In this document: positions 2,993 through 58,600 of the stretch, in pieces
How positions within the stretch are numbered: position 1 is the first letter of the stretch
How the letters are laid out: every line of letters starts with the position of its first letter
Assembly: GCF_963576615.1 (NCBI RefSeq)
Contig: NC_088712.1
Location: 13,522,541 to 13,586,540 of the forward strand
Origin: Watersipora subatra
Taxonomy: Eukaryota; Bryozoa; Gymnolaemata; Cheilostomatida; Watersiporidae
Direction of reading: 5' to 3'
DNA: 64,000 nt
The notes under the pieces: generated by a model
Databases searched by the model: none
Seen by the model: only the letters and a program-made list of their open reading frames with translations
What the model was told of the DNA's origin: nothing
Position numbers and translations under genes: made by a program

Positions 2993-3190
2993 CGAGTTCT
3001 TGCTATATATGTGAGACCAGTATTATATTGTGCTTTAAAAATTGCTTGCTCGATGATGTGCATTGACAAGTACTTGTTTTATTAGAAACACGTAGGACTA
3101 TAATATGCCTTGGCAAAGAGTTGTTGTATAAGCAATGGAGCTATGATAAGTCTTAACAAATGCATGTACAACAGGTGATGCAACTTTAGT
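2993..3190. repeat. Degenerate ~60-bp tandem array, right half
   Basis: This is the continuation of the array at 1940-2192. It again carries GCATTGACAAGTACTTGTTT and related units (CTTAACAAATGCATGTACAA), and lies beyond the inserted foldback element. Confidence 0.6.
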
Positions 3191-3659
3191 GTGTATCATT
3201 GTAGTACCTCTACCAGCAGTTTCAAACAAACTCAAGTTGAAAAAACAACCTTTTCATATTGATTTGAGAAAATTTTAATTTCATACAAATCAATAGAAAA
3301 ATACCATTTTAACATATGCAAATTAAGGAGAAAGCAACCACTTGTTGATATTTATAAAGTAAACATTATCAGTAACTCGGGAGCTAGTTTTAATTTTAGG
3401 TTCTTCTAGTTTTAATCAAATTCATCTCACTGTTTGACTATATGAAACCACATTTAGTAGTTTGGATGCTTGAAAGACATTATCTATATCTATTGTTTTA
3501 AACTTGTTATTATAGCTCAGAAGTCATTAAAACTTGTAACTGCCTGGTAAGAGTCGATAAGCCAAGTTAAACAACTGGTATCTTAGTAGTCTAGCTGTAA
3601 AAGATCGTTCGAAAATGTATATGCACACGCCTATTCTCAAACGCCTGGAGGCGGTTTAT

Positions 3660-3790
3660 TGGTACAGTGCGGTACAGTCTTGGTGTTGGTTCACAAAGCT
3701 CTAATGTCTTGAGTTTGAATTCCATGTAAAACAGTCTTTTACCCCAACTTCCATACCATGGCTACAGACAGCCACGTGGCTTCTTAATTA
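3660..3790 (+). mobile_element. tRNA-derived SINE, degenerate copy
   Basis: A pol III B-box-like GAGTTTGAATTCC is followed by the family tail (CAGTCTTTTACCCCAACTT, then ACAGACAGCCAC). The same order is seen at 35711-35875, 37349-37471 and 46641-46800. The A-box half is poorly preserved. Confidence 0.5.
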
Positions 3791-12000: not shown

Positions 12001-15000
12001 TATATCCCTACGATGTAAACATTCTCGGGACAGATTATTTACATTGTAGGGGCGTCTATTGTATATCCCTCATACTGCTCACCTGTAGCTAAAAACACAC
12101 TAGGGCTATTTTCATTGTGTACCACTAAAATTTGATTACTATTTTATTACAACTAGTGAACCCAAAGCATGGAGTTAACAAGCCTTTGAAGTAACAAACT
12201 TACAAAGATTGTTCAATTTTTCAAATGGCATGTTATAGCTAGTTTGGGCCAAAACCTAATAAACACAATTCACCTAACGATGCACAATGTTAACACTGTT
12301 TGCTGTGTCCAAAATGGTAAAGCAACCTCACAATATAGCAAACGCTTAGTTCCCAGTAAATTACAACATTATGCAGTGTAAAACATTAAAGAAAAAAGAT
12401 CAATAGCGTGTATGCAGAGTGTAGTATTACTATTGGGTTAGCACCTAAGCCTTATATATCACTATTCATTCAAACGAGAGCATGAAAGGTTGCTCTCTCC
12501 ATTTTTCCTTAGCGGTGAAATGCCTAACTCAAGTACTTTTGCTTTCCATGCATGAGCGCTTTTTGTCACATGCTCAGCACTACTTTGGCAATAACAAGGC
12601 CGTCACATGATGTACCCACATTAAGAGATGCGTGTCAGTTTATATGGCAAAAAATCTAGTGGTTCATCTATGTAATACCTCTACATTGATATTATTGCTC
12701 TATAATACTATATTGTAGAGCAATAATTATATTATATATATTATCGATTATTATATTATCTGCTTAAGTTGTTTGAGGAAGAGTCAGTCTTATTCAATAG
12801 GAGAGGAAAGCTAGCGGAGCTGCGAAAACATTATAGATAAAAATGAAACAATTGTACTCATTGGATTTGTGTACAAGTAACGCAACGAATCGTTTTGGAG
12901 TAGTTTTAGCGAAGACAGCCTCAACTGCCACCAAGTTAACTCGTTGTGCACAACTTTCTGTTTGGAAACCTTTAATTTAGTCGACAGATTAAACATGTTT
13001 TAACAGGCCAGTAGACTGACATGAAGACAATCCCTGTCAGTATTCCAGTGAGAGGATAAATCTAAATAAAATATAGGCCAGTGTTAAATGACATGACAGA
13101 AGTTGTATATTCGTACCTTGCTAAACTCTGCGTTGGTATCAGCCAGCATCCTGATCTTACCCTCCGTCTGGTTGGCCTTTCCCCATTCAGACATAACAAA
13201 AGCATCATTGACCGAGACACAGGCAATCACACCTGCACCAGCCTTTTTGAACTCATCTGCATTCTCTACATATCCAGGAAGATGTGTCTGTAATGAACAG
13301 GCAGAGTTAAAGTATAAAAACCTTTGAATGTGCGGTGCCAAACTCAAATATGGCTAATAAAAAAAGTGAGCGAAATTTATATAAAAAAAAACAGACAGCT
13401 TTCAAAACACGTTTGAGCCCGTTTTCTGAGTTTCCGGTTGGAAAAACCCAAATATATTAAAAGGTGTGTTAGACAATCACAAACGCAATGAGTATACACA
13501 TAACTTACACATAATGTACGAATTAAACATCAGATGTATGAACTTAGTTTTAGCTTCCTTGTGAAGTTGTGCAACCATACATACAATATACAGTCAAACA
13601 TGGATAACTCGTCCACGGATAGCTCGAACACATGGTTAATTCGAACGGTTTCTTTGGTCCGTTCCCACGTAATGATAAATTGCTATAGATAACTCGAACT
13701 CAACACTGTTAATTCGAACTGTTTTTTGCCCAACGACTACCGAAACGGTTGTTATCGCTTTAGAAAATCACTTTATTCAAAGCCATAGAGGTGAACTTCA
13801 TCTTTTCGTAATTTATAAGCGTCATTATTACCACCATCGGCAAAATATTTTTGTCAACGACTTTTCTAAAGGTTTGGTGAAATTTGATTTATACTGCTAT
13901 ACGATAAATAGCACGGGCTAGCCGGGTCACGCGCGCAAGGATTTTCGCCACGCACGTACAAAACAAAAATCGCATGTTGTTTTTGTTTTGTATGTGCGTG
14001 GCGAAAATCCTTGAGCGCGTGACCCGGCTAGCCCGTGATGAATAGTTTTCCGACGTTGATTCCGTGTTGAATCAACGTCGGAATGTTGAATGTTTAAAAC
14101 GTCTTAAAAATTGTTGTAATTAAACGTATACATTGTCTTAGCTACAAAAAACTATTCATCGTTTGACCTAAACACAGAATACGTGTGTACATTCAATAAG
14201 TATCTATTAAAGAAGCGTGAGTGATATAGAATGTACCGTAAAACCTCGTAAAACTTCTAATTGAAGTGCCTCGGAGTGTTGCTCTTAACGAATCCCAGGT
14301 AAAGTAAGGTAATCTTTGCATAAACTTCAAGAAAAAACGGCAAAATTGATCGTGGGTAAAACCCCAAAAGAAAAAAATGTCTTTTCTTTTGAGCATTTAA
14401 ACAACGATCAAGTTTTGCCAATGTCAATCTGAAAAACGTCCTGGCAATAACATCACCTCAAACAACAAACCAATCTCAAGTGATAGAAAAATCTCTATAC
14501 TTTTTCATAAAAACGTTTTAAACTTTACATTAGAAGCATTTAATTTGAAACAAGCCATTTGTGCTTTTGATTTATATTATAGTTTGTATATGTACATGTA
14601 TCTACTAATAAATAAGTAAATATATGGACTTGTGACAGTGCTCTGATAACTTGAACGCTTTGATAATTCGAACACTTTTGCTCGGTCCCGTGAAGTTCGA
14701 GTTATCCATGTTTGACTGTATATACAATCGTACAGTCAATTGTTATAGGATCAATCGGTATACGCTTGGTCAATTTATGGCGCCTTACAGTGCCTCGCGT
14801 TGCGCGTTCACAACTCGAGTTGCACAACTCGAGTTGTGAACGCGCAACGCGACTTTTTAAAAGTAAGGTGCAATATATTGGTATTACGGCAACATAACCG
14901 TAGATCTGGTTATATTAACAATGGTATATCAATAGGCACCCGTTAGCTAATTGAAATTAAACTGTATGTACTGTAAAACTAGAGCTAATAGCGAATTATA

Positions 15001-18000
15001 CTGCGCCGAGTTTGCAACTTGAGTTGTACAACTCGAGTTATATTTACCAACTCGAGTTGTGTAAATATAACTCGAGTTGTACAACTCGAGTTGTACAACT
15101 CGAGTTACACAACTCGAGGTCATCAAAAATCCAGGCCGAGTTCTTTTAACAGCAACTCGAGTTCAACAACTCGGCTTGAGAACATCTCATCATTTCATTT
15201 TCTCTAGCTATATTTTCTACATATGGAATTTATTTTGGTGCATCATTAAACGCCGTTGAAATAATTTCTATGTTCATTTTCGGTGTTCATTCAGTTTCTT
15301 GTCAGGTTCTAGAGAGATAACTCTTTTTTTATTTGAAAAAGAAGTGGCCTACCTCCCACATAGATTGTTTTTTAGTTTGCTTTTTACATTTTACAATTGT
15401 TTTTTTGTCTCGTTATATTTATAGAAATAAATATGCGCAAATATCGCCAATATAATTATATAATTTAAATGTGTATATATATTTAAATTATTAGTGTTAA
15501 ATTTCTGTAAATGTTCTGTAAATGAGACACACCAATTACTCACTTTGCTTTTTTTACAAACCCGTGTTAGTTTTGCGTATAACACAACTCGAGTTAATCA
15601 TAAACCCAGGCCGAGTTGTACAATTCGACAACTCGAGTTGGACAACACGAGTTGTGAACGCGCAACGCGAGGCACCGTAAGGCGCCATACAATTAGTATA
15701 CGGTCAATCGATATACGATCAAACGTTATACAGTCAATCGGTATACAGTCAATCGGTATACAGTCAATCGGTATACGGTCAATCGGTATACGGTCAATCA
15801 GTATACGGTCAATCAGTATACGGTCAATCAGTATACGGTCGATCGGTAAACAAACCTTGACTTACATTCCCCTCTACACGGAAATTTTCAACACACTATG
15901 TAAAATCTAAACACATATCTGCCTTAACATATGATGTAATCTTCCATATAGGATGGCATTTCTCTCAATATCACAACTTTTTAAGTAAAAATAAAAAGCA
16001 AGTAGCAATTTTTAAAATGTAAGAATTGAAAAATAAATCAGGTTCCCCCATCAACTTTTGAGCAGTGGTGATAGAATGTCACCAATCGGCTTGGGCAAAC
16101 ATCTGGTAGAGTGCGTAGGCAAGACATTTTTCTCTCACACAAATAGGAAATTTATAAAGTTGTCTATAAAATTGGCTGTTCTCGGGAGTCACCTGTTTAA
16201 AACCTGCTGGGCATGATCTGCTTTCATGAAAAAGGATTTCAAACGAACATATTTCAGTTAATCTAGTTCAGAAGACTAGTAATTTTAATATCATTATACA
16301 GCGTTGTAATTGTTGCCAGTTGATATTTTACAAAGATCGCAAATCTTTCAGTTCATTTTCAAAATTCAACTCGTAGAAAGAATTGTTAGTGTCCTATATG
16401 AGATTAATTTGATAATACACTAACACAGTTTTTTCCTTTCATGCGACATGGTGACGCGGAAAAGGAAAAAAACTGTTTTCTATTTCAAATCAAATTTGGT
16501 TAAATGAAGCGGAACGATATCTCTGCTTCTCGGCTCATTTCAGTAAGTAGATAAATATGACATACTGTAATGGCGTAACGATGCTCATCCCATTTCATAA
16601 CAATGGAAACAATATCCTACGGCTCATATGTCATCAAGAGATACATTGACAGATGTAGGTGACAGAGAGGCATTCGAAGCACATACCTAGCATAAGAATT
16701 ATGCCAGCCATTGTAAAAAAAACCTAGGAATTCAGCAAGTTTTAAACATTGTACAACCAAATCTTTCATTTTTTTATGTCATCAATTCATCTGCACATGC
16801 GCTCGTTCGTGGAAACGTCGCGGTATTTGTAGACAAACGAGCATCACTCTCATTCACATTGTGTTTTTGAATAGTATAATTGTTGGTGTTATGTCGAGTT
16901 TTTATCAGAATTCTCTGATAGAAAGTGTTCAGCGTCGCTAAACAAAATTGCGAACAATGGCGTCGTTTGCAAAATTTTTGCAGAAATTTTGTGTTTTCAA
17001 CGGTAAAAGTTGTCTATAAAGATAGTAGACCACTAATAATTCACAGTCTCACACTTACGGAATAGCACCATGAAAAAAACGAAGGATTAGCTGCCGGGTT
17101 TAAGAGGAGAGATGTAACAGTGGTAAGAGATTGAATACATCACACCTTCTAGCTCTCAAAATACATAGCATACGCAAATGGATAATAATGAATTAAAATT
17201 AAGCAAAAGGAAAACAAAGCAGCACACTAGTTGTAAACTATTGATTATAATTGTTGTAAACTAATTGATTTTTACTTCAGTGGAGTTATGTCCCTCATAG
17301 TATCTATTCGATGAAAATGAAAAATATAAAAAGAGTATCATATGATTGGTTTTTGGGAATATGATTGCATTTTTGAGAATAGAACAGATTAAACAATCCA
17401 TCGGTTTTTTTGACGTCATCACGATATTTGCACATGTGCTCGTTCACGAAAAAGCCGCCATATTTGTAGAAAACAATCGTTATTTTTATATTTAATAGCA
17501 CTTCTTGGTGTTGTTTTGAGACTATAATAAAAAAATTGCAAACAAAAGCATCGCTTTCAAAAATTTATTGCAAAACCTTTGCGTTTTTAACGATTAAATT
17601 GTCTATAAAGATGGCCAACAACGATAAAATGACGTCATGAAAAAACGAAGGATTGTATATTATTTTTAATGCGAAAATTCACTTCACGAAATGAGTAAAT
17701 CGATGATTTAAAGCTGTTAAACTGTAATTACTAAAAACTACCTAGGGCCAACAATAACTTAACATATGTGACATGTGGCAGGTTGTTCAGGTGAGTGAAA
17801 AGCTTCATTTTAAAACTGGTTGCGATTCATATGTAAAACTAACAAAGAAAGATACAGAACACATATTTCACAGAGGCTGCACAACAATGTGCTTGAATTT
17901 GTTCAAATTGTTTGACTGCTAAACGTATGTGAAGAGTGACAGTGTGTAGGTTGAATGTGCCGAATATATAACAAACATCAGGTAAGTCAAGCAGTGAGTC

Positions 18001-27500: not shown

Positions 27501-30500
27501 GTTGGAAAATTGCCAATTTTTGGTCGCAGTTTCGCCGCTTTCTCATAAATCACATTTCCATGAGTAAAGATTTATCGGGAGGCGAAAATGGAATGGAGGC
27601 AATGTATCAAATGGTAGACTTAGAGGGTTTTCAACTAAAATGCGTCAGCGAACCATATTTATTAGTGGATCGTCGCAACACTCGACATAGGAAATGATGT
27701 CATAATGTTATTTTCTTGCGGAATAGGCTAAGTTTCCTTGGCAGTCAAACCTATGCTATGTTGACGATTCTTGGTTCGGTTCTCAGTATACCTAGAAATG
27801 AAATGTTATTGTATTGTTTTAAGTAGTATTAAAATACTGCCATGTTGGCATGCCAATGTCATGGATAGTCTGTTTATGTTCGTCGGGGACCTCTATTGAA
27901 TACCTCTATTTTCTCCCACCTAAGATTTTATGATACAAAATAATATTTTAGCTACAACGAGGGTCTGCGGAGCAAATCACAAGAGCAGTACGGAGCAGCG
28001 ATCAGGACCTTTACGAGAATTATTGCTATGAAACCTGAGAGTGTGCTGCCGTACGTGCAAAGGGCCGAGTGTTACCTTATGACCGCTGACTTCAAGTCAG
28101 CAATCCAGAATTACAAGAAGGCCTACTCAATAGATCCACAAACCGAGCTCTATCTCAACAGGTACTGAGGCTCACTTGACCTTTTAACCTTTTATGCTGC
28201 AACTTCCAGCGACTCAGATTGCTGTATGACTTGCATTCTCGGAATATTTTTCAAAAATTTTTCTCTATATTTGCGGTACATACTGTGTTGAGTCAACTAT
28301 CACAGGTACCAACTATTCATGATATTAAAAATTTCATTCTAATAACTATCTTAGTTTTGTAGCGCATTTGCGTATAGTAGGGTAAAAAACAACACATCGA
28401 AAAGCTTGTAGCAAATGTTTTGCGACATATTCTGATCATATTTTAATTTTCGTTTAATTCGGTGTGTTTCAGACTTGCCCTAATATTTTACCTGCAAGGA
28501 CAGAGCTTGTTTGATGCCCAGGACTACACAGGAGCTCTTGAATGCTTTGCCAAGTGCTCAGAAATCAAACCGAGCAATGATGGGTACCACACACGAAGGT
28601 TAGTTGAAATTAGACGTCTGGATTGAACTTATTCATCAACTTTGACAAATTTATTTATAAATACAGTAGAGGCTCCTATAACGTAAATTCCAGATAACTT
28701 AAAAAAAATTATGTAATTTATTTTTAACATCAAGTGTCAAGTAGGGGCAACTTCAAATTCATTTTGAATGGTAACACATCTCGCCGCACATATGAGAGAA
28801 AGAATGACGCATGTATGGCGTTATATCTATTATATATACAACTTCCATGGCATTTTAGTTCATTGTGATAGATCGTCAGATGTGTCGACAAAACAGAGAA
28901 TAGGTAGCTGTGCAATCGTTAATAAATACTTAAAAGCAATTGATTGGTGCAGGTGTTACAGCGTCAGTTTAACAATCTAAATGGCACGAGTTTAGAGTAT
29001 TGCCGAAAGTTATCTTTTATCCTAACCTGGATCCTTGAATACAGATATACGACGAACAGATAGACACCACTCTTTTTGTAGTGAAGTATATTTTTGTTCT
29101 GCTTTATTATGGAGGTATGAAATATTTGTTATTAGTACTTTCCAGAAAAGACTTTGCTGTTTAAAAAAATGAAAAAATCGTTGGAATGGGCGTCGAATGT
29201 GCGCGTTCCCCATCAATGTGTTGTAAAATTACTGCAATCATGGTCTATAAAACCAGTGAAATTGATCAGCAAAGGAGAAAATTGTCGATGCAAATTAATA
29301 ATATAATAGTTACAATACAGCCAACAAATTGAAAAGTTAAGTCTTTTTTGTTTTGTATAGCCAAAGGGGTGAGTTAGGAAAGATCTTAGAACAGATTAGG
29401 CACTTTACATGCATTTTACTGTTCGTATAATACAAAGTCCCTATAACGCAAATGCTACTGGAATGAATTATTTGTATTGTAAAAGCGCCTACTATATTTG
29501 TAAAAGCAATAACCATAGATATGACTAATAATGGTAGTAATATTAGTCCTAATAATCATGATAATAATATTAATAATACCAATCATGATAATAATAGTAA
29601 TACTAATCATGATAATAATAGTAATACTAATAATCATAAAATAATAGTAATACTACTAATCATGATAATAATAGTAATACTAATAATCATGATAATAATA
29701 GTAATACTAATAATCATGATAATAATAGTAATACTAATAATCATGATAATAATAGTAATACTACTAATGATAATAATTATAGTAATACTAATAATCATGA
29801 TAATTATAGTAATACTACTAATCATGATAATAATAGTTATACTACTAATCATGATAGTAATTATAGTAATACTAATAATCATGATGATAATAATAGTAGT
29901 ACTAATAATCATGATAATAATAGTAATAATAATAATAGTAATACTAATAATCATAATAGTAATACTAATACTAAATGAAAAAATTAGTTTGCTGTAGTTT
30001 TCTTTTTAATAAAAGTGTTTTCTGGTAACAATCCTTATAAGTAGAGATGCCCCGGTTCTAATATCACTAGCCGATTCAGATACTGATTCCGATATTAGAA
30101 TCGGGGCAATTCTACTTATAAGTTGTGATCAGTTCAATATGATGCGAATCTCCTAACAAAGTACGTTTTGTGTAATAAGTTAAAACGCACTTGCAAGTAA
30201 TAGGCTGTCGCATTACATACACATATGTTTATATTGGCAGCATAGCATGTCTAGCAGCGCTGCAGAGGCATGGAGAGTGTCTTGCCATTATTAATAAGAG
30301 GCTGGAGGATGAGAGGAACAACACTGACCTCTACGTGATGAGGAGTCGACTCCATCTCATGTTCAAAAATGTAAGTTTTCAAGAGGTCATTGAGTAGCGA
30401 AGTTAACGTTATCTGGAGACATTTTCTTAGAGATTATGCTGCTAGCCAATAAGTGTGTCTTGCGTCTCGCATGCCATACAGAACTAAAGTCTGCATACAT

Positions 30501-36500: not shown

Positions 36501-39500
36501 AATGCTTTATGTAAGTAGGGATAGTAAAATCAAGTTTCTTTCAAATTTGAATCCGATTATCAAAAGTAATTCTTTTAGTTTACAATTCCTGTAATGGTGA
36601 TGTTAGACGAAGAAAAAATACTATGTTAATTTATACTTTTGTATGTCAGCCATGTCATTAGCAAAAACGGTTTTTGTTACTCAAGTTGTGATTGAGGTGC
36701 TAACGCAATTTCTTTTTATTTTTGTTAAACAATCTATTGAAAGTGTCACACATTTTCCACCTTGATGCACTATCTTCCCAATTGTTTCATAACAAATCTA
36801 TTTTTATTCATTAAGGTACCCTTCCATCTTCTATATTAAATAATTTCTCAGAGTTATCATCTCTATCGTATTAGCACAACTCCGTAATTGGAAAAGGTTT
36901 ATGCCTGTACTAAAGCTTACCTTGAATGCCTGCAGCTGTTTGTTTTTGCTTCTTAGTTCAAAACAAAAAATGAGCAAACGGGAGGGAAAGGCTCGAGCCA
37001 AGTACAAAGCCTGTGTTCAAGAAGAAGAGTTCAACAGAATTCTTGCAAGAGAAAAAATGGTGGTAAGTTTACAAATACTTAGGCGAGTCATCACTTGTCG
37101 GCCTTCTCATCAGCTGTTGACATACTAAACGTGATCTAAACGTAACTTTTGCTCGAAACTGAGGTGGCACGCTATGAGCTTCCATATACAGATAATATTT
37201 TGATAACAATGCCTAAATGCAAAGACACTCTCACCCTCGATAACTAGCACCCTTGAAGATCATGATTGTGTAAGAGTACATGACAATTTGCTATGTACCA
37301 ATTTTTTGTACTCATAACACGTGCAACTATTCCAAGTTGTGGCAAGCTGGCTGCATGGCTTAATAGCAGTACGCTTAACATATCATCTGTGCAACCACAA
37401 AAATACAAGTTCCATTTTATGTGAGGTGCAGTCTTTTTTCCTTACGCTGCTTTCGGACGAACAGACACTGCTAAAAAAATACTCAAACTAATTGGGTAAA
37501 TAAATAAACAACATAATAGTAAATGACAGAAATAAACAAACGCCTTCATTTAAATGCTAGAATGGTAATCTTTTAGTATCCAAACCATTCCTGGCATTAA
37601 CCTAGTAGTTTCATTATGATTCATTTACTTTAATCTTTTAGTATCCAAACCATTCCTGGCATTAACCTAGTAGTTTCATTATGATTCATTTACTTTAATC
37701 TTTTAGTATCCAAACCATTCCTGGCATTAACCTAGTAGTTTCGTTACGATTCATTTACTTTAATCTTTTAGTATCCAAACCATTCCTGGCATTAACCTAG
37801 TAGTTTCGTTATGATTCATTTACTTTAATCTTTTAGTATCCAAACCATTCCTGGCATTAACCTAGTAGTTTCATTATGATTCATTTACTTTAATCTTTTA
37901 GTATCCAAACCATTCCTGGCATTAACCTAGTAGTTTCATTATGATTCATTTACTTTAATCTTTTAGTATCCAAACCATTCCTGGCATTAACCTAGTAGTT
38001 TCATTATGATTCATTTACTTTAATCTTTTAGTATCCAAACCATTCCTGGCATTAACCTAGTAGTTTCATTATGATTCATTTACTTTAATCTTTTAGTATC
38101 CAAACCATTCCTGGCATTAACCTAGTAGTTTCATTATGATTCATTTACTTTAATCTTTTAGTATCCAAACCATTCCTGGCATTAACCTAGTAGTTTCATT
38201 ATGATTCATTTACTTTAATCTTTTAGTATCCAAACCATTCCTGGCATTAACCTAGTAGTTTCATTATGATTCATTTACTTTAATCTTTTAGTATCCAAAC
38301 CATTCCTGGCATTAACCTAGTAGTTTCATTATGATTCATTTACTTTAATCTTTTAGTATCCAAACCATTCCTGGCATTAACCTAGTAGTTTCATTATGAT
38401 TCATTTACTTTAATCTTTTAGTATCCAAACCATTCCTGGCATTAACCTAGTAGTTTCATTATGATTCATTTACTTTAATCTTTTAGTATCCAAACCATTC
38501 CTGGCATTAACCTAGTAGTTTCATTATGATTCATTTACTTTAATCTTTTAGTATCCAAACCATTCCTGGCATTAACCTAGTAGTTTCATTATGATTCATT
38601 TACTTTAATCTTTTAGTATCCAAACCATTCCTGGCATTAACCTAGTAGTTTCATTATGATTCATTTACTTTAATCTTTTAGTATCCAAACCATTCCTGGC
38701 ATTAACCTAGTAGTTTCATTATGATTCATTTACTTTAATCTTTTAGTATCCAAACCATTCCTGGCATTAACCTAGTAGTTTCATTATGATTCATTTACTT
38801 TAATCTTTTAGTATCCAAACCATTCCTGGCATTAACCTAGTAGTTTCATTATGATTCATTTACTTTAATCTTTTAGTATCCAAACCATTCCTGGCATTAA
38901 CCTAGTAGTTTCATTATGATTCATTTACTTTAATCTTTTAGTATCCAAACCATTCCTGGCATTAACCTAGTAGTTTCATTATGATTCATTTACTTTAATC
39001 TTTTAGTATCCAAACCATTCCTGGCATTAACCTAGTAGTTTCATTATGATTCATTTACTTTAATCTTTTAGTATCCAAACCATTCCTGGCATTAACCTAG
39101 TAGTTTCATTATGATTCATTTACTTTAATCTTTTAGTATCCAAACCATTCCTGGCATTAACCTAGTAGTTTCATTATGATTCATTTACTTTAATCTTTTA
39201 GTATCCAAACCATTCCTGGCATTAACCTAGTAGTTTCATTATGATTCATTTACTTTAATCTTTTAGTATCCAAACCATTCCTGGCATTAACCTAGTAGTT
39301 TCATTATGATTCATTTACTTTAATCTTTTAGTATCCAAACCATTCCTGGCATTAACCTAGTAGTTTCATTATGATTCATTTACTTTAATCTTTTAGTATC
39401 CAAACCATTCCTGGCATTAACCTAGTAGTTTCATTATGATTCATTTACTTTAATCTTTTAGTATCCAAACCATTCCTGGCATTAACCTAGTAGTTTCATT

Positions 39501-42500
39501 ATGATTCATTTACTTTAATCTTTTAGTATCCAAACCATTCCTGGCATTAACCTAGTAGTTTCATTATGATTCATTTACTTTAATCTTTTAGTATCCAAAC
39601 CATTCCTGGCATTAACCTAGTAGTTTCATTATGATTCATTTACTTTAATCTTTTAGTATCCAAACCATTCCTGGCATTAACCTAGTAGTTTCATTATGAT
39701 TCATTTACTTTAATCTTTTAGTATCCAAACCATTCCTGGCATTAACCTAGTAGTTTCATTATGATTCATTTACTTTAATCTTTTAGTATCCAAACCATTC
39801 CTGGCATTAACCTAGTAGTTTCATTATGATTCATTTACTTTAATCTTTTAGTATCCAAACCATTCCTGGCATTAACCTAGTAGTTTCATTATGATTCATT
39901 TACTTTAATCTTTTAGTATCCAAACCATTCCTGGCATTAACCTAGTAGTTTCATTATGATTCATTTACTTTAATCTTTTAGTATCCAAACCATTCCTGGC
40001 ATTAACCTAGTAGTTTCATTATGATTCATTTACTTTAATCTTTTAGTATCCAAACCATTCCTGGCATTAACCTAGTAGTTTCATTATGATTCATTTACTT
40101 TAATCTTTTAGTATCCAAACCATTCCTGGCATTAACCTAGTAGTTTCATTATGATTCATTTACTTTAATCTTTTAGTATCCAAACCATTCCTGGCATTAA
40201 CCTAGTAGTTTCATTATGATTCATTTACTTTAATCTTTTAGTATCCAAACCATTCCTGGCATTAACCTAGTAGTTTCATTATGATTCATTTACTTTAATC
40301 TTTTAGTATCCAAACCATTCCTGGCATTAACCTAGTAGTTTCATTATGATTCATTTACTTTAATCTTTTAGTATCCAAACCATTCCTGGCATTAACCTAG
40401 TAGTTTCATTATGATTCATTTACTTTAATCTTTTAGTATCCAAACCATTCCTGGCATTAACCTAGTAGTTTCATTATGATTCATTTACTTTAATCTTTTA
40501 GTATCCAAACCATTCCTGGCATTAACCTAGTAGTTTCATTATGATTCATTTACTTTAATCTTTTAGTATCCAAACCATTCCTGGCATTAACCTAGTAGTT
40601 TCATTATGATTCATTTACTTTAATCTTTTAGTATCCAAACCATTCCTGGCATTAACCTAGTAGTTTCATTATGATTCATTTACTTTAATCTTTTAGTATC
40701 CAAACCATTCCTGGCATTAACCTAGTAGTTTCATTATGATTCATTTACTTTAATCTTTTAGTATCCAAACCATTCCTGGCATTAACCTAGTAGTTTCATT
40801 ATGATTCATTTACTTTAATCTTTTAGTATCCAAACCATTCCTGGCATTAACCTAGTAGTTTCATTATGATTCATTTACTTTAATCTTTTAGTATCCAAAC
40901 CATTCCTGGCATTAACCTAGTAGTTTCATTATGATTCATTTACTTTAATCTTTTAGTATCCAAACCATTCCTGGCATTAACCTAGTAGTTTCATTATGAT
41001 TCATTTACTTTAATCTTTTAGTATCCAAACCATTCCTGGCATTAACCTAGTAGTTTCATTATGATTCATTTACTTTAATCTTTTAGTATCCAAACCATTC
41101 CTGGCATTAACCTAGTAGTTTCATTATGATTCATTTACTTTAATCTTTTAGTATCCAAACCATTCCTGGCATTAACCTAGTAGTTTCATTATGATTCATT
41201 TACTTTAATCTTTTAGTATCCAAACCATTCCTGGCATTAACCTAGTAGTTTCATTATGATTCATTTACTTTAATCTTTTAGTATCCAAACCATTCCTGGC
41301 ATTAACCTAGTAGTTTCATTATGATTCATTTACTTTAATCTTTTAGTATCCAAACCATTCCTGGCATTAACCTAGTAGTTTCATTATGATTCATTTACTT
41401 TAATCTTTTAGTATCCAAACCATTCCTGGCATTAACCTAGTAGTTTCATTATGATTCATTTACTTTAATCTTTTAGTATCCAAACCATTCCTGGCATTAA
41501 CCTAGTAGTTTCATTATGATTCATTTACTTTAATCTTTTAGTATCCAAACCATTCCTGGCATTAACCTAGTAGTTTCATTATGATTCATTTACTTTAATC
41601 TTTTAGTATCCAAACCATTCCTGGCATTAACCTAGTAGTTTCATTATGATTCATTTACTTTAATCTTTTAGTATCCAAACCATTCCTGGCATTAACCTAG
41701 TAGTTTCATTATGATTCATTTACTTTAATCTTTTAGTATCCAAACCATTCCTGGCATTAACCTAGTAGTTTCATTATGATTCATTTACTTTAATCTTTTA
41801 GTATCCAAACCATTCCTGGCATTAACCTAGTAGTTTCATTATGATTCATTTACTTTAATCTTTTAGTATCCAAACCATTCCTGGCATTAACCTAGTAGTT
41901 TCATTATGATTCATTTACTTTAATCTTTTAGTATCCAAACCATTCCTGGCATTAACCTAGTAGTTTCATTATGATTCATTTACTTTAATCTTTTAGTATC
42001 CAAACCATTCCTGGCATTAACCTAGTAGTTTCATTATGATTCATTTACTTTAATCTTTTAGTATCCAAACCATTCCTGGCATTAACCTAGTAGTTTCATT
42101 ATGATTCATTTACTTTAATCTTTTAGTATCCAAACCATTCCTGGCATTAACCTAGTAGTTTCATTATGATTCATTTACTTTAATCTTTTAGTATCCAAAC
42201 CATTCCTGGCATTAACCTAGTAGTTTCATTATGATTCATTTACTTTAATCTTTTAGTATCCAAACCATTCCTGGCATTAACCTAGTAGTTTCATTATGAT
42301 TCATTTACTTTAATCTTTTAGTATCCAAACCATTCCTGGCATTAACCTAGTAGTTTCATTATGATTCATTTACTTTAATCTTTTAGTATCCAAACCATTC
42401 CTGGCATTAACCTAGTAGTTTCATTATGATTCATTTACTTTAATCTTTTAGTATCCAAACCATTCCTGGCATTAACCTAGTAGTTTCATTATGATTCATT

Positions 42501-42922
42501 TACTTTAATGCTATATTTAATTACCTGGGAAGTATTTATCATTCTTTTTAGGCTATGGAATGAATTGAACAAAATAATATGTAATCTTATTGCTCCAACA
42601 AAAGGCAAATTCAACATACGAATCAATTTTATTTGAATATACAAACTTCTAAGAATGCTAATCTATTCATAAGCGTATAGGTGGAATATTCCCATCTGCA
42701 GATGATCTACACATGATAAAGAAAATGTCTATTACTTGTCATATTTTAAAGGTACATGAAAAGGTGAAGATAGCCCTGTCAGACAGACAGAGTCTGAAGC
42801 ACAAAGGTCCAACCGTAGCTAATAGGCTACCTGCGCCACAGTCGGAAATGTCTGGAACCATTCCAAAAACTGGCTGGAGAACTTTTACGCAAGGAATAAG
42901 TGTTCGTGATGGAAGCTCATAG
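24594..42922 (+). CDS. TTC16: Tetratricopeptide repeat protein 16, 16 exons, complete
   Basis: Exons: 24594-24808, 24924-25029, 25505-25688, 26568-26689, 27263-27477, 27952-28161, 28473-28598, 30241-30370, 31379-31593, 32429-32588, 33646-33733, 34059-34195, 35257-35364, 36153-36355, 36957-37062, 42752-42922. All are GT-AG and phase-consistent; the sum is 2496 nt, 831 aa. Residues 1 to about 280 are Ser- and acid-rich (a DEDTEDEEEEGAEGEG tract in exon 3) and low-complexity. From about 281 follow roughly ten TPR-like helical pairs, for example PYVQRAECYLMTADFKSAI. Stretches characteristic of animal TTC16 are AQRQLLLTYNDFA, NKALKGEQREKGLYVNRGDC and FPGKSIDEIM. The C-terminal tail is short and basic. 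Human TTC16 (about 870 aa) instead has a short N-terminus and a long Ser-rich tail. The family is a poorly characterised TPR scaffold, associated with ciliated/testis expression in mammals. Confidence 0.93.
25030..25504. other. TTC16 intron 2: nothing recognised
   Basis: A+T-rich sequence between a GTGAGT donor and a long T tract before TTAG. No repeats or frames of note. Confidence 0.5.
26340..26567 (+). pseudogene. Two decayed tandem copies of the 5' part of TTC16 exon 4
   Basis: Three consecutive units of about 93 bp share a GACACAT-TTGCAG acceptor, a G-T-rich start, an AGCTATAAA/GCGATCAAG block and TTATGTC(T/A)CTGA. Starts after the AG are 26381, 26473 and 26568 (the true exon 4). Read in the exon's phase, copy 1 stops at its third codon (TAG) and copy 2 at about its sixth (TAA). 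They are therefore fossil exon duplicates with surviving acceptor sites. Confidence 0.8.
28664..29460. mobile_element. Probable small DNA element, borders uncertain
   Basis: The sequence begins TACAGTAGAGGCTCCTATAA and contains a second CCCTATAACGCAAATGC block near 29440. Its right part matches the dispersed block at 11925-12050. It lies in TTC16 intron 7. The terminal repeats are not convincingly inverted, so the extent is a guess. Confidence 0.4.
29521..29980. repeat. 27-bp A+T-rich minisatellite
   Basis: Units such as AATCATGATAATAATAGTAA plus TACTAAT repeat about 17 times with small deletions, all in multiples of three. This leaves open frames on both strands (Asn/Asp/Ser-rich one way, Ile/Met-rich the other) that are not genes. 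It lies in TTC16 intron 7. Confidence 0.9.
30025..30128. mobile_element. ~100-bp hairpin MITE
   Basis: CTTATAAGTAGAGATGCCCC followed by GGTTCTAATATC pairs with GATATTAGAATC followed by GGGGCAATTCTACTTATAAG. It has a 25-nt loop and lies in TTC16 intron 7. Confidence 0.75.
30371..34058. other. TTC16 introns 8-11: no repeats or genes identified
   Basis: Introns 30371-31378, 31594-32428, 32589-33645 and 33734-34058 are unique A/T-rich sequence. Intron 9 is T-rich. A false acceptor (TCTCTCTGCAG at 32411) precedes the true exon 10 acceptor (TTTTGTAG) by 17 nt; using the false one shifts the frame. Confidence 0.5.
34743..35006. mobile_element. Foldback MITE, 'GAGGTGATCTGACT' family, best-preserved copy
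   Basis: Arms of about 120 bp start GTAGATTTTGTCAGAAAGTA and end TACTTTTTGATAAAATCTAC. Each carries an inner GAGGTGATCTGACTCCCAGG / CTTGGCAGTCAGATCACCTC block and a GATTAAAATCGAC block. Relatives occur at 49330-49895 and 61086-61478, and as fragments inside elements A and B. It lies in TTC16 intron 12. Confidence 0.85.
35353..35412 (+). repeat. Tandem duplication of the exon-13 splice donor
   Basis: CTTGAGGTAAGTAGCTG followed by (A/C)TGTTTTAC occurs twice, 29 nt apart. The first copy ends exon 13 at 35364 and the second is intronic. Splicing from the second donor would read GAG GTA AGT AGC TGA and terminate, so the first must be used for full-length protein. Confidence 0.85.
35711..35875 (+). 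mobile_element. tRNA-derived SINE
   Basis: An A-box-like region (GGTTGAGTGGCGGGATAGTA) is followed by B box GGGTTTGATTCC at 35768-35779. The shared tail follows (CAATCTTTTTTCCTAGCG, then GGACAGACACAGCCC and TAGTAAAGATTGT). It lies in TTC16 intron 13. Confidence 0.7.
36356..36956. other. TTC16 intron 14: nothing recognised
   Basis: Unique A+T-rich sequence ending in a TTTTTGCTTCTTAG acceptor. Confidence 0.5.
37349..37471 (+). mobile_element. tRNA-derived SINE, diverged
   Basis: GGCTGCATGGCTTAATAGCA resembles a pol III A box. The tail GCAGTCTTTTTTCCTTACGC followed by GGACGAACAGACACTGCT matches the family at 35711 and 46641. The B box is eroded. It lies in TTC16 intron 15. Confidence 0.6.
37566..42509. 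repeat. 65-bp minisatellite, about 76 nearly identical copies (4.9 kb)
   Basis: The period is exactly 65 bp; each unit starts TAATCTTTTAGTATCCAAAC and includes CATTCCTGGCATTAACCTAG. Copies 3 and 4 carry variants (TTCGTTACGATT and TTCGTTATGATT). Reading through the rest I saw no further substitutions. The array fills most of intron 15, between the last two TTC16 exons. Each unit holds two acceptor-like AG sites (TCTTTTAG and TTAACCTAG), the second after a CATTAAC branch-point-like motif. Such homogeneity indicates recent expansion or gene conversion. Confidence 0.97.
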
Positions 42923-43651: not shown

Positions 43652-46600
43652 TTAATGCTCAGAAGCCTTGTTAGAATTGGTCAGAGAAGTATTCATATCA
43701 ATTTCACTACTGGAAACTTCAACACCTGTTGCAAGCTCTTTTAAAGAACTGTTATGATCATCCCTAAGTGGAGAAGTTCCATTTGAAGTTGTCTTCTCAC
43801 TGGATATCGGGTGGCCATTATTTAGCACAGGGCTGGTTAAGTCAGATTTCAAATTTAGCTCAACTTCATCTGGATCAACTGGTGATGGTTTGGTCAAAGG
43901 TATGTCTACAAGTATGAAAGAATAAACTGGAAAAAACATGTTATTTTTTAAATACAAGTTGGAAAACGTCTGGGTATCAGGCTTTGGACATGACAAGAAG
44001 CAAATCTTAGCAAAGAAAATTACAATTGGACAGTTCATGAAAATTTGGGATAAGAAATATACATAAAAGACGAAAAGGCGTGATTAAACTGGGGATTTCA
44101 TATTGGAGGGACTCAGCGATACTCGGTGCATACCTCTACATCCAAGATGTATGTTTTTCCTGCAGACAAATGACACCACAGAATAAAATAACTACAGCGA
44201 CAAACACATCTTTGAGCTATGGTTGGACAAGCATACATGAGCATTATTCATAGAACTATTACACATCTATACATATGTCTATGAAATGTGTTAGTCTTTT
44301 GAAAGTACAAGGACGTATGAGAGGAAAAAAGAAAAGATTTTATGCCGAATTTACCGCTTGCAATTCAACACCAGACAACCATTCCCAACTACATTAATAA
44401 TGGTATATACAGAGTCTGTCATGCTAGTCATAAGCCTTCCTTTAGTCACCATGATGTGGTTTGGATCATACCGATCGACCTCAACAATTTGGAAGCTTCA
44501 AATCTATTCTTCACAGTTGAAATAAAAATCAACTAATCTGGTACATTTATGTAAGGCAAAAGTTGAAAGAACATTTGAAAAACGGACTCATTATCTGCTA
44601 CTAGTGTCATCCTTCAGTTGTTGGTATTTCGCCAAAATCAAGTGTTCGTGTAACACTTGATTTTAGATACAACAAGTTCATCATATTCACAGTGACAGCA
44701 AGAGTAAGAGGAGCCCCATCAATCTCTTTACCGGAACCAAACAATGTGCAACAGCACAACTTCATGGAATGCCATGCATTCACCAAACGGATTTTTGATA
44801 TCTTTAAGCGGTGAAAGCTTTTTACAACAAACTTATGAGGGTGGAGGCACCTGACAAGCTGGAATATTTCTCCGCCTAAATAAAAGTGTGCATTTTTGTA
44901 TTTGTGGTTGAGCTACACCAATTTAGTTTTACCAATAACCCAGGTGAGTAAAAGCCACACAACCAAGGAGACCAGGGTTAGTGATGATCAGTTGTTAATA
45001 TGCAGATTAAGAAAGGCAACTATAGCTGCACACCAAAGCCAGACGGACTCTAAAAAATGATTTGTGCACAAATTGATGGATGAGTGCAGTCAAATGTGAG
45101 ACCGGTGCAGCTCTACACTTAGACAATACAGTGCTCTGCAAGACAGGTGCAGCTCTACACATATACAATGTATAGCTTCACAAGACCCATGCAGCCCTAC
45201 CGATAGAGCATGCAGAACTCCACAAGACCAGTGCAGCTCTATACATGGGCTATGCAGCACTCTGTGAGACCGATGGAGCCTTGCACTTAAACCATGCAGT
45301 GCTCCAACAGTGCAGCACGAGTTATTCCATACTGCGCTCCACGAGACCAGTGCAGCTCTGCATATTGACCATGCAGCGCTACGCATATACATTGTACCAT
45401 GCATAGATTCATGAGAATAGTGCAGCTTTACACATAAGCCATGCATAGCTGTACGAGGCCAGTACAGGGCTACACAAGTCATGCAGCACTCCGTGATACT
45501 AGCGCAGCTCTAGCCGTTGGCCACACAGCACTCCGCGAGATCTGTGCAGCTCTAACTATAGGCCACGCAGCACTCCAACAGTGCAGCAAAACACATAGGC
45601 CAACCATAGCTTCACGAGGTCAGTACAGGGCTACACAGGCCATGCAGCACTCTGTGATACCAGCACAGCTCTAGCCATAGGCCAGGCAGCACTCCGTGAG
45701 ACCTGTGCAGCTCTAACCATAGGCCACCCAGCACTCCAACAGTGCAGCAAAACACATATGCCAGCCATAGCTTCACGAGACCAGTGCAGCTCTAACCATA
45801 GGCCATGAAGCATTCCGTGACACCTGTGCAGCTCTAACCATTGGCCACGCAGCACTCCGTGAGACCTGTGCAGCTCTAACCATTGGCCACGCAGCACTCC
45901 GTGAGACCTGTGCAGCTCTAACCATAGCCATACAGCACTCCGACAGTGCAGTAAAACACATGCAAGCCATAGTTTCACGAGACCAGTGCAGCTCTACATA
46001 TAAGCCATGCAGCGCTCTGTGATACCAGCGCAGATCTACACGTGAACTTCACCGCGTCACACAAAGCAAGTGAAGCATATATTAGTTATGAAATAGCCTG
46101 GTGCAGCATTACACAAAACCGTGAACCATTACTCATGACTTGTTAAGCAGCAGATTAGACTAGTGGCGTTCTAAGGAGGACCAATGTAGTCTAAGAAAGC
46201 AAACTATACCTGCAACTAGTGGTTTCAAAGGTCTGTACTCCTGTAAATTCATAGCATAAAAAATAGCACAATGTAGAGCCGCAGAGACATGCTGGAACAA
46301 GCCAATCATATATTGCAACAGCCCATCCAAGAAGTGTATTGGATAGAACCATAACAAATAGAGATGCTCAAGACAAGCAAAAAGGAAGAGAAGCCATGTA
46401 GCACATACCTGTTCTTCCAGCTACAGAATTGACAAATAAGATTTATGCTTTAACATAACCCAACCAAAGAAACTTCAGAGAAACAGCTAAATTAAAATTG
46501 TTTTACATCGAAATGAAACAGTGGTATTGGGTATATGCATAAAGAAACAGAGAAATTTTATACTAAAGTAGACCCAGTATGCCGTGATAGACCTCAGGTT

Positions 46601-52600: not shown

Positions 52601-55600
52601 GTTGACTACACACATATAGAAAATTATTCTAGCCAAAGGAGTTACGGTAAAACCTCAAATTGAACGCCACCTCTATTTGACCGCCACCTCTATTTGACCG
52701 CCACCTCTATTTGACCGCCACCTCTATTTGACCGCCACCTCTATTTGACCGCCACCTCTATTTGACCGCCACCTCTATTTGACCACCACCTCTATTTGAC
52801 CGCCACCTCTATTTAATTGCCACTATGAGCGAAGGGTTAAAAAATAGAGCGCCACCCTCTAACTCAGGGATAGGGAACCTATGGCTTTCGAGGCATATGT
52901 GGCTCTTTTGATGATTTCATCTGGCTCTTTAATAAAACTCTTTGGAAAAAAAATCCATAATTTTGTTGTTAGTTTAATTACCATAATAATAAAAAATAAT
53001 GCTGAAATTACAATAATAATAAGCAGAATAAAAATAATTTCTACTTAATAAAAATATTTTTTCACATGCAACTATTTGATGTGGCGCGCACCGCAAAGAG
53101 TTTATAGTACTTTCTGTACTCCGCTATACGTTTTGACTATGTTTGGCTCTACATATGCATGCGAGCAGTCATCCTAACACATGAAGAATATTTAAACGAA
53201 CGTGCCATCACATTTAACAGATGGAAGCCTAAATGCCTGCATAAAACTGAGCCTCACCATATATCAACCAAACCACAAAGCTATCAGCAAAAGCATGCAG
53301 CATCAGAAGTCGCATTAATAATAAGAAGTATTTTTCATAATATCTTTGTTATCACGATGCTGTTCAAAATAAATTCAGTGTTCTTATACTCTAAAATTGC
53401 TCAAGCATACTAAATTTGTTGGTCTTCCTTTTCCATTTTATGTTTTCGAGATTCAAAATATACATATGGCTCTCTTAGAATTAAATTTTGAAACAGGTGG
53501 GTTTTGTGGCTTTCCCAGTCAAAAAGGTTCTTGACCTCTGGTCTAATTGAACGCCACCCTATTTGACCGCCACTCTGACCTTCTTTGATCTTTACGAACC
53601 CATAACAGCAAGTGATCAGAAGAAAAGTGTTCACAAATCGTATTAATAATTAATCAATTACATCGATAACAATTAAATTTCTCATTGTCCAAAAAAGTTC
53701 AGCCGTGTAAAAGAAGAGTTGAGGCAAGAAGATATTGTGGAATGCATCAACTAACCAGAATATGTACGTTCTATTGAAAGCAGCGATCAGAACGCAGCTA
53801 TCCGAGCAAATGATGCAAACATTTTTGTTTCAAGAACATTAATTTTGGTTTTGGCATGTACAATAACAATGGTTCGTTTATGTCACTTATTCATGAATAT
53901 ATATTTGAAGCGTTTGATAGATTATTGTTATATAACTTATAAATTTGCGGATGCATAGCATATTATTTGGTAGCATTATTGCGGTTATCTGATCTTACAA
54001 TGAATCGACGTTTGTAACTCCTCTTCTCTTGCACATAAAAAGCTAGTTTCGGCTGCAAATTAGCAAGCATATTAATGAATGCAATGAGCTTTTATGCGAC
54101 ATTGTTAAATATAGATATAAAATAAAAAAATATCTCTTCAAATTGTTATATGTCCTTCCTACAAGGCAGGAAAAACATGACAATTTGTCATTTTACAAAT
54201 TGATATTATAACCTGTGTTCTTCCTGCAAAGCAGCAAGGACACAAGCTATAATATCATCGCAAGTTAATTGCACGCAATAGATAGCAACTGGTAGAGATA
54301 TTTCTTGGCTTCCCAATGCATATGTATTGAGTGATATTTGACAAGTTGGAGCTAAGTTAGCAGATTAAAAAGGGTTAATATCGCTCCACCAGAAAGAGAG
54401 GGCAAAAATAGGTAACACTCGCTTCGTCCGTAAATGAGCTAAATTTGTCTTCCAAAATTCTGATGAGCCATTTGAAACGTACAGCACCAGCTTTTATTTG
54501 AACGCCACCTCTAGTTGACCACCACTTCTATTTGACCACCACTATAGAGGAGTATTGAAAAATATATTGCTATGGCGTTCGATTAGAGGTGTTACGGTAT
54601 CTACCATTAAAACATACATGTACATCTACTACGTTTATTACTAAAATGGCACAAAATAGACCATTTCTTGTGAAGCTATAATCGAAGAGGCAGAGAACAT
54701 TCTAGAAAGACTCAAGTTATAAAAGGCATTAATGCACCCGGAAGTTTGATTTGGCTCATACAGTAATTCCTCACTATTTCATTATCTACTTTTCGTGGCT
54801 TAAGTACTTCACAAAGTACTATTAAAAGGTATTCATTAAAAAATCCAAAATTAAAGAAAATCAATAAAAATAAACGAAAATACGTAAAATAAATAAATCT
54901 TTATTTATTCTATATTTATTTATTCTGCCTCAGTAAGGTTCCTACGCAAGCGTTATTGTGATAACAGTCACCACGGTTCCCCATTTTCCTCCTACATTTT
55001 GTGAAGTGCAAAAGTGCAAAGTGCTTATTCCACCCTTCATCGTGCATGCTTCGACCACCAAAATTGTCTAACGAGATGAATATGATCAAAAAACCTTTAG
55101 TGACTTCTAGTAGACAGTATATTTACTAGTTATATATATATACTAGTTTCTGCTTCACGGATTTTCAAATACATGAGCGCCGGTCTGTAAAAATTAATGA
55201 TTACTATACTAGGATCCTAACCACATCTAAGTTGATAAGAAAAAACATGCAAGCCAAGAGAAATCTGTGTTAATTCGAATGTAACACATTCGGAGTATTA
55301 GAAGCAGGGAGAGGCGTGGCTAAATGCTCACCATTGAGGGTCAAATGTTCTAGAAGACTCACTCAACTGACTGACCCCTTCTTTGGAAGAGGAGAATCGT
55401 GGAATCAGATCAGGCTTGTTTCTATGTAGCAAGGCACCATCTGCATAAAAACATCCCACAAATATTTTGCAATTTACTACAAGCTAAATCTAAATAGTTT
55501 AGAAGTTGTCCGCTCTTGTTAGCAAGGACAGACAACTGCTAATCATCTGCACTTGTATGCTTCGGTGCTACAAGCTGAAGGAGTCATACAGCGTTTAATT

Positions 55601-58600
55601 TATCTTTCCAACTGCTCTGGCTGGCATGTTGGTGCATTCTTATAGTGTGATAAAACTTGCTATAGTATTAAACTAAGAGCTTTTGAAAATCTCATCAAGG
55701 AGAGGCAACACACCATCATTTCTGAAAAGGTCTATCATTATTGCAATAATACTGCTTCACATAGATAAAATCCTATTAAGGTTGTTCACCCTTGAAATCT
55801 ACATCATGAACACTATTATAAATGGTTTAAGATTTTATAATTTTTTGCACTTTGAGTAGCATACATTTGGTAGGGAGGGTTACCAGCAGCAAGGCCGGAC
55901 CAAAAATGGTCAATCCATGGTCTACTACAGTAACTGATCAGCAAATAAGTCCATTCATCTAAGCTCTATGTATACCCTACAGGATGAATTTATTCGCGGA
56001 GTTATATTTCGCGAAAATTGTCTTTTCATACATATTCGCGGATGAATTTATTCGGGGCTGAAAACTGCCACTCTCTAGGAAAAGTTAACTCTATTGCGGC
56101 TAGTAATAGAGTTATTCCTACGCATGCGCACACTGCGTGTTCCGGTTTATATTTAGTTTACAACTGCGAGGCGATCATGCTATTCTACGGTAAACAATAT
56201 TTGCTGTGTCCAGAGGTTTTCACGAATATTCATCGCTTTGGAGGCCTTTGATAAGCCAACAACTTGTGGTAAGTAATGAGTTTTTTTACATTTACTAAAT
56301 TAGTTGAATTTTACTTTGGTTCTTCGGTAAAACGCAATACTAATTTTTTCCATCCCTACTGCTTCATTATTTGTTTTAGTGTGAGAGAGAGATTTTTCAT
56401 CATACGCCGAAGAACAATGATTGCAAGGGTGGTAGATGTCATTCTTAGAAGACCACCAATCATTCAGGGAGGTCTGGAAATTGAGGTAGAAGTGACCGCA
56501 GCTACTTACGAGGAGAATATATCTGTTTTTAAAAAAGGAACAAAAACGCCTTTACGAGCACAAATCTTTGGCCAACCGGCAGAACTTTGCCGGTAAGTAA
56601 TAGTAAGCCACGAGGAGAGTTCTGATGATAACTTCCTTACCAGTCATGTAGTAGCAAAATAATCGCCTTTAACATCTACCCAAGACAGTGACAGCGCTGC
56701 TATTACCAAAATAACTTGTCAGAAAGCACCATTACACGCTAGTATTCACATATCAAGAGTACCAGTTTAATTTTATTGCTAGACAACCGCCATATGGACT
56801 AAACTGTTTTTATTTACTCCATTCATCGTTTGTAAAATTTTATTTGTATTTGAAATATTTTATTTGTACACTCAAGTTTGTAATAAATTATAATATATCT
56901 ATACATGAAATAAAATATATAATTTAATCATGTTTGCTACAGCGATATCAAGGAGTTGTTGTCGATGAAGGGGTTTAGGTTGACTGGTTGCCTATCTGCC
57001 AATATTCCTGCCTTGATGAATATTACTACTTGTCTCTAGTTTTCGTAATCGGAGTAGGTTGTTTCATTCTCAATCTGCAGTAAACACAAAAAAGAAAAAA
57101 TATTAACGAGTGTTGAGGAAGTACAAAAACAATAGCTGAAGTATTTGATGAAAGCGATCAGTTTTAAACAAAAGAATTAACTAATGCAGTTGATTATGGA
57201 AAAACGTATCTGCAGTGCAAATAAAATACATACCATAATGTCCGGATCAGAATCATGATCGTCCTTGACTTCGGTATTAGAGATTGATGGAGTTGGTTCT
57301 AATGTAAAAAGACTAGGAGAGCTTTTTTGCTATGCTGAAGCCATGCCGAATAACTTGTAAAAACCTTGAATAATTTTGTTAAGTTTGACGCAATGGCAAT
57401 AAAGCTCGAAGCCTGGCGATGATTTTAAAGAAGTTTTGGAACTCGGCTACGTTTAGTACTTCTGCCTCGCGGCTATTTTCGCGATGGCGCCATTCTGCAT
57501 ATATTGTGACAACCTCGAATAATTTTGTAAATAAATGTGATGCATTGCCTATGGTGTTAGCTCAAAGCTCAGGCAATGATTTTAAAAAAGTTTTGGAACT
57601 CAATTACGTTTAGTATTTACATTAAAAACTAGGCTAGCGACTAGTTTTCAATTTGATGCAGTAGTTATTCTCTCTTGTGATTAAAAATAGAACTAATTAT
57701 TCACTGAATTTAATAATTCGCGAGATTGACTGTTCGCGAAACCGCGAATTTTTATGACCAACGAATATTTTCATCCTGTAGGGTAGTTGCTGCCCCCTGA
57801 CACAGACTAACATGGCCCCCATGTGACCTTTGACATTCAAACATACCATGACGTTCAGTCTCTCCCTACAAGCCCCTAGGAGCTAAATGGTACCACCAAT
57901 CACCAATCATTGAATACAGAGCACAGGTTGCACCAGCTCCCATAGCTTGTCGCAAGCCAGTAGACCACCTGACCTCAAATAAACTAAGATTAGCAAATAA
58001 AAGTAAAAGAATAAAAATATAATATAAATCAGTCAATTGCTTTTGCGTTACATTTCGGCTACAAACTGTTTTCCACTAAATCTAGCTGACACCATATGGC
58101 AGGTTTTTAAAAATAAGAGACAACTTCACCACAACTTAATGACATGAGAGAGTGATTCAGCAGTAGACGACGTTGCATCAGCATGATGACGATGCTACAT
58201 GGAAAGTGACTAGCAGCCAAGCAAAGACCTACCTGAAGCCGGGCTGACGGGAGAATCTGTTGCTCCAGCAGGATCGGTCACAGACCGCTGCCGACTTGCC
58301 GATTTTTTCTTTGAAGGAGAGCGCATAGCTGTAAACATATCAAAGCATTGAATAGCAAGAAAAACTAACAAGGAGAAAGTCTTGTCCAAATCATAAATGT
58401 TCCACTAAATGGTTGATATAAAATACAATTAAATGATTGGGGCTGCTTACCAATATGAAAAAAGGTCATTCTAGAAACATTTCATTGATAACCATCGTTT
58501 GAGTGACTATGGAGTTAATTTAAACGCGTGACTCATACTGTTACCTGACAGTGAGTCACCACACCGAGCATGCAGTTCAGTCTAGCAGATGCAATGCAGA

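Follow-up and report, generated by a model that had tools for sequence, protein, structure and literature searches.

The window analysed here, a stretch of 64,000 nucleotides from Watersipora subatra, carries a DNA transposon with a TA duplicated on each flank, and inside it lie pieces of spliced reading frames on both strands (Table 1). The initial annotation had described the segment as closed by perfect 16-bp inverted repeats and as holding two convergent two-exon genes whose stop codons overlap in a single CTAG. The perfect repeats are present (55973–55988 and 57770–57785), but their outermost TA belongs to the target-site duplication, leaving a terminal inverted repeat (TIR) proper of 14 perfectly matching bases; with the TA counted in, the likeness extends to 24 nt at 92%. 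Motifs of the TTCGCG type lie close to both element ends. Pieces of two convergent genes do lie within the element, but neither gene is intact, and the CTAG at 57036–57039 exists without intact genes meeting there. Poly(A) signals occur as described: an AATAAA lies at 57220 and its minus-strand counterpart, TTTATT, at 56839 and 56859, all in AT-rich surroundings; no support was found for mutually antisense mature transcripts.

Other parts of the window are repetitive as well. A 65-bp unit repeated 76 times, with 99% matches, makes up a satellite at 37566–42509, and a long inverted repeat at 9415–11876, with 298-nt arms 87% complementary and further matching arms inside, is possibly a fold-back transposon. 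There are also a near-perfect palindrome (13912–14037; 58-nt arms, 97% complementary, 10-nt spacer) and two tandem arrays, of 27 bp (29526–29936) and of 84/161 bp (45419–45942), both nominally containing long open frames.

Table 1. Parts of the transposon, with positions in the window
Feature	Position	Strand	Basis or remark
DNA transposon	55975–57783		TA duplicated on each flank
Left TA target-site duplication	55973–55974	.	Flanking TA in most complete copies; empty relatives of the L016 site with a single TA
Left TIR, CCCTACAGGATGAA	55975–55988	+	Repeat search and copy alignment
Putative HIRAN-gene exon 1 remnant, reading TIFAVSRGFHEYSSLWRPLISQQLV, no in-frame ATG here, then GTAAGT	56194–56268	+	Alignment
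Putative remnant intron, GTAAGT ... TTTTAG	56269–56379	+	Both signals kept in most rows, 18-copy alignment
Putative HIRAN-gene exon 2 remnant	56380–56592	+	Copy alignment; contains the first-described plus exon 1
8-bp insertion CGGTAAGT, private to the window copy, creating the plus donor GTAAGT	56591–56598	+	Alignment and genome search
Putative minus exon 2 remnant, IENETTYSDYEN then stop	57036–57074	-	Acceptor AG kept in 28/28 rows
Putative minus exon 1 remnant, commonest family reading MASSSQKISPSLFTLKSTPSISNTEVEDDHDSDLDIM	57234–57344	-	Donor GT kept in 27/28 rows
Partial tandem duplication, 57340–57461 / 57489–57618	57340–57618	.	Single in older copies, e.g., L010 and L038
Right TIR	57770–57783	-	Repeat search and copy alignment
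Right TA target-site duplication	57784–57785	.	Flank comparison of copies

Family size and target site

The search for further copies bounded by these repeats, which the initial annotation had proposed, brought up very many. At up to 2 mismatches, the family TIR occurs at 2027 forward and 2060 reverse places in the 784-Mb genome (239 contigs), and the same pattern read backwards, used as a control, at 144 and 103. A variant TIR, TACCGTACAGGATGAA, has 245 and 240 exact places genome-wide, its control 0. For comparison we took 46 other complete TIR-bounded copies, 47 with that of the window; L-numbers denote the fetched loci, and the one-ended copies L034, L040 and L041 stand outside the counts. 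Sampling was not random: most copies were taken from exact repeats in the first 36 Mb of one contig, and the remaining ones came via matches to the HIRAN or minus exons. Of the 47, 26 measure 1.77–1.86 kb, 5 measure 0.56–0.72 kb, 9 are of 1.47–1.73 or 1.89–2.05 kb and 7 are longer. The window copy is closest to L009, at 96.6% (33 copies compared). A very young subfamily is formed by L054, L055 and 26 further places: an open frame of 42 aa recurs at 28 of the 150 places listed, with an identical score at 21 of the 28, and L054 and L055 are 97.9% identical, with a TIR of CCGTACAGG or one base different. The transposon family may already be named in Repbase or Dfam; a literature search on the TIR letters gave no transposon paper among the titles listed.

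A TA stands on both flanks in 42 of the 44 complete copies tested, the window copy included (a count taken without L056–L058), the exceptions being L042 and L051. The clearest view of the target site comes from L016, where the copy interrupts a dispersed repeat; relatives of that repeat without the insertion, in L030 and L041, show one TA at that point. The target-site duplication is therefore 2 bp long, and without it the TIR is CCCTACAGGATGAA. When the flanks of 31 copies were joined, those of 5 (L016, L017, L022, L024 and L048) matched fetched DNA across the junction, L016 being the only clean case: the relative of the L017 site has 11 extra bases at the junction, and L022, L024 and L048 were rejected as empty sites, their matches being mainly to repeats in their own flanks. 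The window itself holds relatives of the dispersed repeats hit elsewhere by the L016 and L017 insertions, at 53713–53990 and 15051–15371, respectively; the former, like a relative in L042, is also uninterrupted, and in both the letters beside the junction differ.

The plus-strand frame and a HIRAN-domain gene

In the window copy, the plus frame can be read as first described, 56417–56592 joined to 56943–57039 giving 90 codons and then a stop. Its donor, however, placed after 56592, sits within an 8-bp insertion that is absent from all 33 aligned relatives (17 of them inspected letter by letter); searched with its context at up to 2 mismatches, the insertion is found at one place genome-wide, the window copy. 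The spliced frame is intact in 0 of the 17 relatives examined, and the 90-aa product, suggested for comparison with structure databases, has no match in the PDB up to E 10. The frame is a shifted reading: where L013 continues as ENISVLKKKQKCLYEHKLFANRQNFAIVSHEES, the window copy, past an altered A-run, continues as FKKGTKTPLRAQIFG.

On the alignment of the copies, the plus-strand remnants of the window are homologous to the two exons of a HIRAN-domain gene that, in relatives, starts near the left end. In most undeleted copies, exon 1 begins ~200 nt inside that end; an in-frame ATG is present in the homologous exon of 7 of the 9 copies examined, and in L030, where additional DNA precedes it, the exon reads MLSYKLLAASRGFHEYSSLWRPLINQELV. 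From exon 2 of the window copy ~95 nt are missing near 56390 and an A-run is shifted near 56530, and no HIRAN domain is recognisable there. The lost ~95 nt are kept in L010, L038, L044, L049/L050, L051 and L052 and partly in L030 and L035; in L049 the undeleted region reads EPNNLHEPLAVKLINADCATVGHLPREISIVSSFF. With its exons joined in silico, L049 barely passes the PF08797 cut-off (24.8 bits against 24.7; E 1.9e-5), L010 stays below it at 23.1 and 20.8 bits, and a composite sequence, not that of any single copy, scores 30.6 bits. The top PDB matches are HLTF HIRAN chains, weak ones whose E of 0.038 would carry little if taken alone.

The whole HIRAN gene is intact in 0 of the 9 copies examined. 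The start is lost in L049 and L050, the frame is shifted at the start of exon 2 in L030, L038, L044, L051 and L052, and the gene is broken by a deletion in L013 and by an A-run shift in L010. Across 9 copies, exon 2 shows 27 synonymous and 96 nonsynonymous changes (ratio relative to expectation, 1.37). The young pair L049 and L050, with exon 2 undeleted, nest inside a clade of deleted 1.8-kb copies lacking the ~95 nt, so the deletions do not form a simple series; their placement points to recombination with a source not carrying the deletion.

The HIRAN domain is familiar chiefly from host repair proteins, and one may ask if the exons, perhaps along with a second host gene, were captured from the host as in a Pack-type element rather than inherited from an autonomous ancestor. 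HLTF being the PDB match would suit such a capture, as would the fact that no transposase lies beside the HIRAN gene in any sampled copy. We nevertheless regard capture as unlikely: the gene starts near the left end with a first exon of its own and an ATG in seven of nine copies, much as a transposon gene would, and no separate source gene was seen among the best-scored candidates, introns being unmodelled; this last argument is weak. The genome search with exon 2 scored the best 150 of 1597 candidates. A generic HIRAN-like query gave 109 genome matches (best E 1.3e-10), of which 107 coincide with exon 2 places, the exceptions being C1:49877335 and C3:73432144. The PF08797 profile gave 0 matches at E 0.001 among 87 candidates scored and missed the present transposon family too, so such searches can miss a host HIRAN gene. 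One phage-like IMG/VR contig, L053, matched over 32 residues at 44%, probably by chance. In the portions of the literature available to our search, no link between the HIRAN domain and a eukaryotic DNA transposon was found.

The minus-strand frame and tests of selection

The minus remnant reads as a short acidic exon beginning near the right end. Counts for this frame refer to the 28 aligned rows holding the region, 6 of the 34 rows being without it. The usual family reading is MASSSQKISPSLFTLKSTPSISNTEVEDDHDSDLDIM-IENETTYSDYEN-stop, or near it, and is intact in 10 of the 28; together with the well-kept splice sites, this could be read as function. In the window copy, the frame is without a usable start: the ATG at 57344–57342 is in frame and a TAG follows at codon 5 (57332–57330). 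The same TAG is common to six copies (the window copy, L009, L014, L018, L021 and L039), which in the tree do not form a clade of their own, L019 and L023, which do not carry the stop, being placed among them. Most simply, the TAG would already have been present in the source of the six.

One of the checks proposed at first was whether both frames are conserved with dN/dS below 1. The ratio of nonsynonymous to synonymous changes, relative to expectation, is 1.17 for the plus and 0.78 for the minus frame (28 rows), both inside the range of 0.56–1.65 spanned by shifted frames and non-coding controls over the same number of rows; these ratios are rough, a change inherited by several copies being counted several times. 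The lowest value, 0.56, came from shifting the plus region by one base relative to the first-described frame. No clear purifying selection is thus seen on either frame.

These results bear on a striking reading of the locus, that of a small transposon moving autonomously, with two working genes placed tail to tail and mature transcripts antisense to one another. The plus frame is readable in the window copy, the minus splice signals are kept in nearly all rows and the CTAG in 23 of 34, all of which would fit such a pair. The private plus donor and the want of an intact spliced plus frame in any of the 17 relatives examined speak against it, as do the stop in the minus frame of the window and five other copies, the selection ratios and the fact that neither frame has a recognised domain. 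We consider a functional pair exceedingly improbable. Copies lacking both frames, named in the initial annotation as evidence against its reading, are what we find for the plus frame, but a minority of rows keep the minus frame intact. Overall, its description stands for the repeats, the copies, the plus reading and the CTAG and is not confirmed for the plus donor, the minus start and the constraint.

Search for a transposase and an autonomous partner

The initial annotation recognised no transposase in this DNA transposon, in agreement with the six-frame Pfam search of the window element, which gave nothing over the cut-off and one sub-threshold match (E 0.058). No transposase gene was seen in the 47 complete copies by Pfam, alignment, length and ORF reading combined, the Pfam part covering the window copy and ten long frames of L013, L026, L027, L029, L030 and L056, with L058 and the insert of L044 outside the scan. 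Among the ten long frames, only retrotransposon domains exceeded the cut-off, in nested inserts of L026, L027 and L029. The longer copies were considered as autonomous elements and rejected: the extra DNA of L026 (6.4 kb) and L027 (6.9 kb) encodes pieces of reverse transcriptase, RNase H and integrase, that of L029 (4.4 kb) the zinc-binding domain of an integrase along with a weak match to an integrase core, the inserts of all three being bounded by 4–5-bp repeats of transposon sequence, and L013, L044 and L056 contain other inserted DNA in which no protein was recognised. L054/L055, tried as a master copy, are 1.79 kb long, and no transposase was seen in them. An autonomous partner was not found among the sampled copies.

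Matches to Tc1-type (PF13358), pogo-type (PF03184) and mariner-type (PF01359) transposases are abundant in the genome. Among the best 150 scored for each, of 488, 718 and 314 candidates, respectively, we found none between family TIRs when comparing them by eye with the HIRAN and TIR places listed. The two nearest, at C6:34052940 by coordinates and in L057 by sequence, lie outside any copy. At L057, a Tc1-like element bounded by different repeats, CAGTGGTGATACAAATTATGGAACC, occupies positions 2317–4123 and is separated from a family copy by 34 nt, and at L049 a frame of a further transposase-like gene (TNP-like_RNaseH_N) lies beside the copy (325–591, minus strand; 22.1 bits, below the cut-off of 24.6).

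Discussion

Non-autonomous derivatives of cut-and-paste transposons are moved by transposase made elsewhere, and the window element is an ordinary non-autonomous copy of an abundant family. It is highly probable that it is a non-autonomous copy of a high-copy, TA-targeting cut-and-paste transposon, worn down from a larger element with two convergent genes, and that a transposase acting in trans moved it. The larger ancestor would have carried a HIRAN-domain gene running from the left end and a convergent second gene, perhaps the transposase, from the right. Internal deletions may then have stripped most of it and brought the remnants of the two gene starts together; the overlapping convergent "genes" would be such gene-start leftovers, joined by deletion and by one private insertion. 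The 1.8-kb form would have spread because it retained its TIRs and, close to each end, motifs of the TTCGCG type, both of which would be recognised by a transposase that a partner supplies in trans. We infer that this transposase is of Tc1/mariner type, from the TA duplication, since none was found between the TIRs. The duplication of TA points to the Tc1/mariner group (PMC7325037).

More tentatively, and with somewhat less than even confidence, we propose a lineage of TA-targeting transposons with two convergent genes, one of them for a stand-alone HIRAN protein, of which the window element would be a young deletion derivative. From work on HLTF, HIRAN reads DNA 3' ends, and a stand-alone HIRAN protein might bind the excised element at its 3' ends or act on the break at the donor site. 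The striking two-gene picture drawn from one copy was gone after a few dozen relatives had been aligned, and what is left of potential interest is the HIRAN remnant alone: if the proposal is true, a HIRAN-carrying DNA transposon would bring a new kind of accessory factor, acting perhaps at the excision ends.

Comparison with known systems

An alternative to the Tc1/mariner type would be some other transposase, whether ISL2EU-like, piggyBac-like or undescribed, whose duplication of TA would be coincidental; we think it rather improbable. The target duplication of piggyBac is TTAA, and although the present TIR begins with CCCTA, reminiscent of piggyBac, the flanks of the family are TA. A layout of two convergent genes is reminiscent of ISL2EU and similar two-ORF groups, and most autonomous ISL2EU candidates have two ORFs; as defined in PMC4482050, however, ISL2EU has an AT duplication, a TIR usually beginning with GG and a THAP transposase with a YqaJ protein, whereas the family of the window duplicates TA and its TIR does not start with GG. 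PIF/Harbinger elements differ as well, with a 3-bp TWA duplication in the same source against one of only 2 bp here. Pack-type elements resemble the window element in being non-autonomous and in containing pieces of spliced genes, but here no host source gene was seen among the best-scored candidates and the remnant lies where a transposon's own gene would start. Compared with HIRAN proteins (PF08797; HLTF), the EPNN...VGHLPRE stretch of L049 aligns to HLTF, but the protein here would be small, stand-alone and situated within a transposon.

The closest likeness is to deletion derivatives of Tc1/mariner (ITm) elements, shared features being short TIRs, a 2-bp TA duplication, AT-rich targets, high copy number, no recognisable transposase and several deletion sizes (0.56–2.05 kb, without the seven longer copies). 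The differences are that no DDE/D transposase of the superfamily was recognised and that the plus remnant is that of a HIRAN-domain gene. Although not filed as a member, the window element works like Tc1/mariner (ITm).
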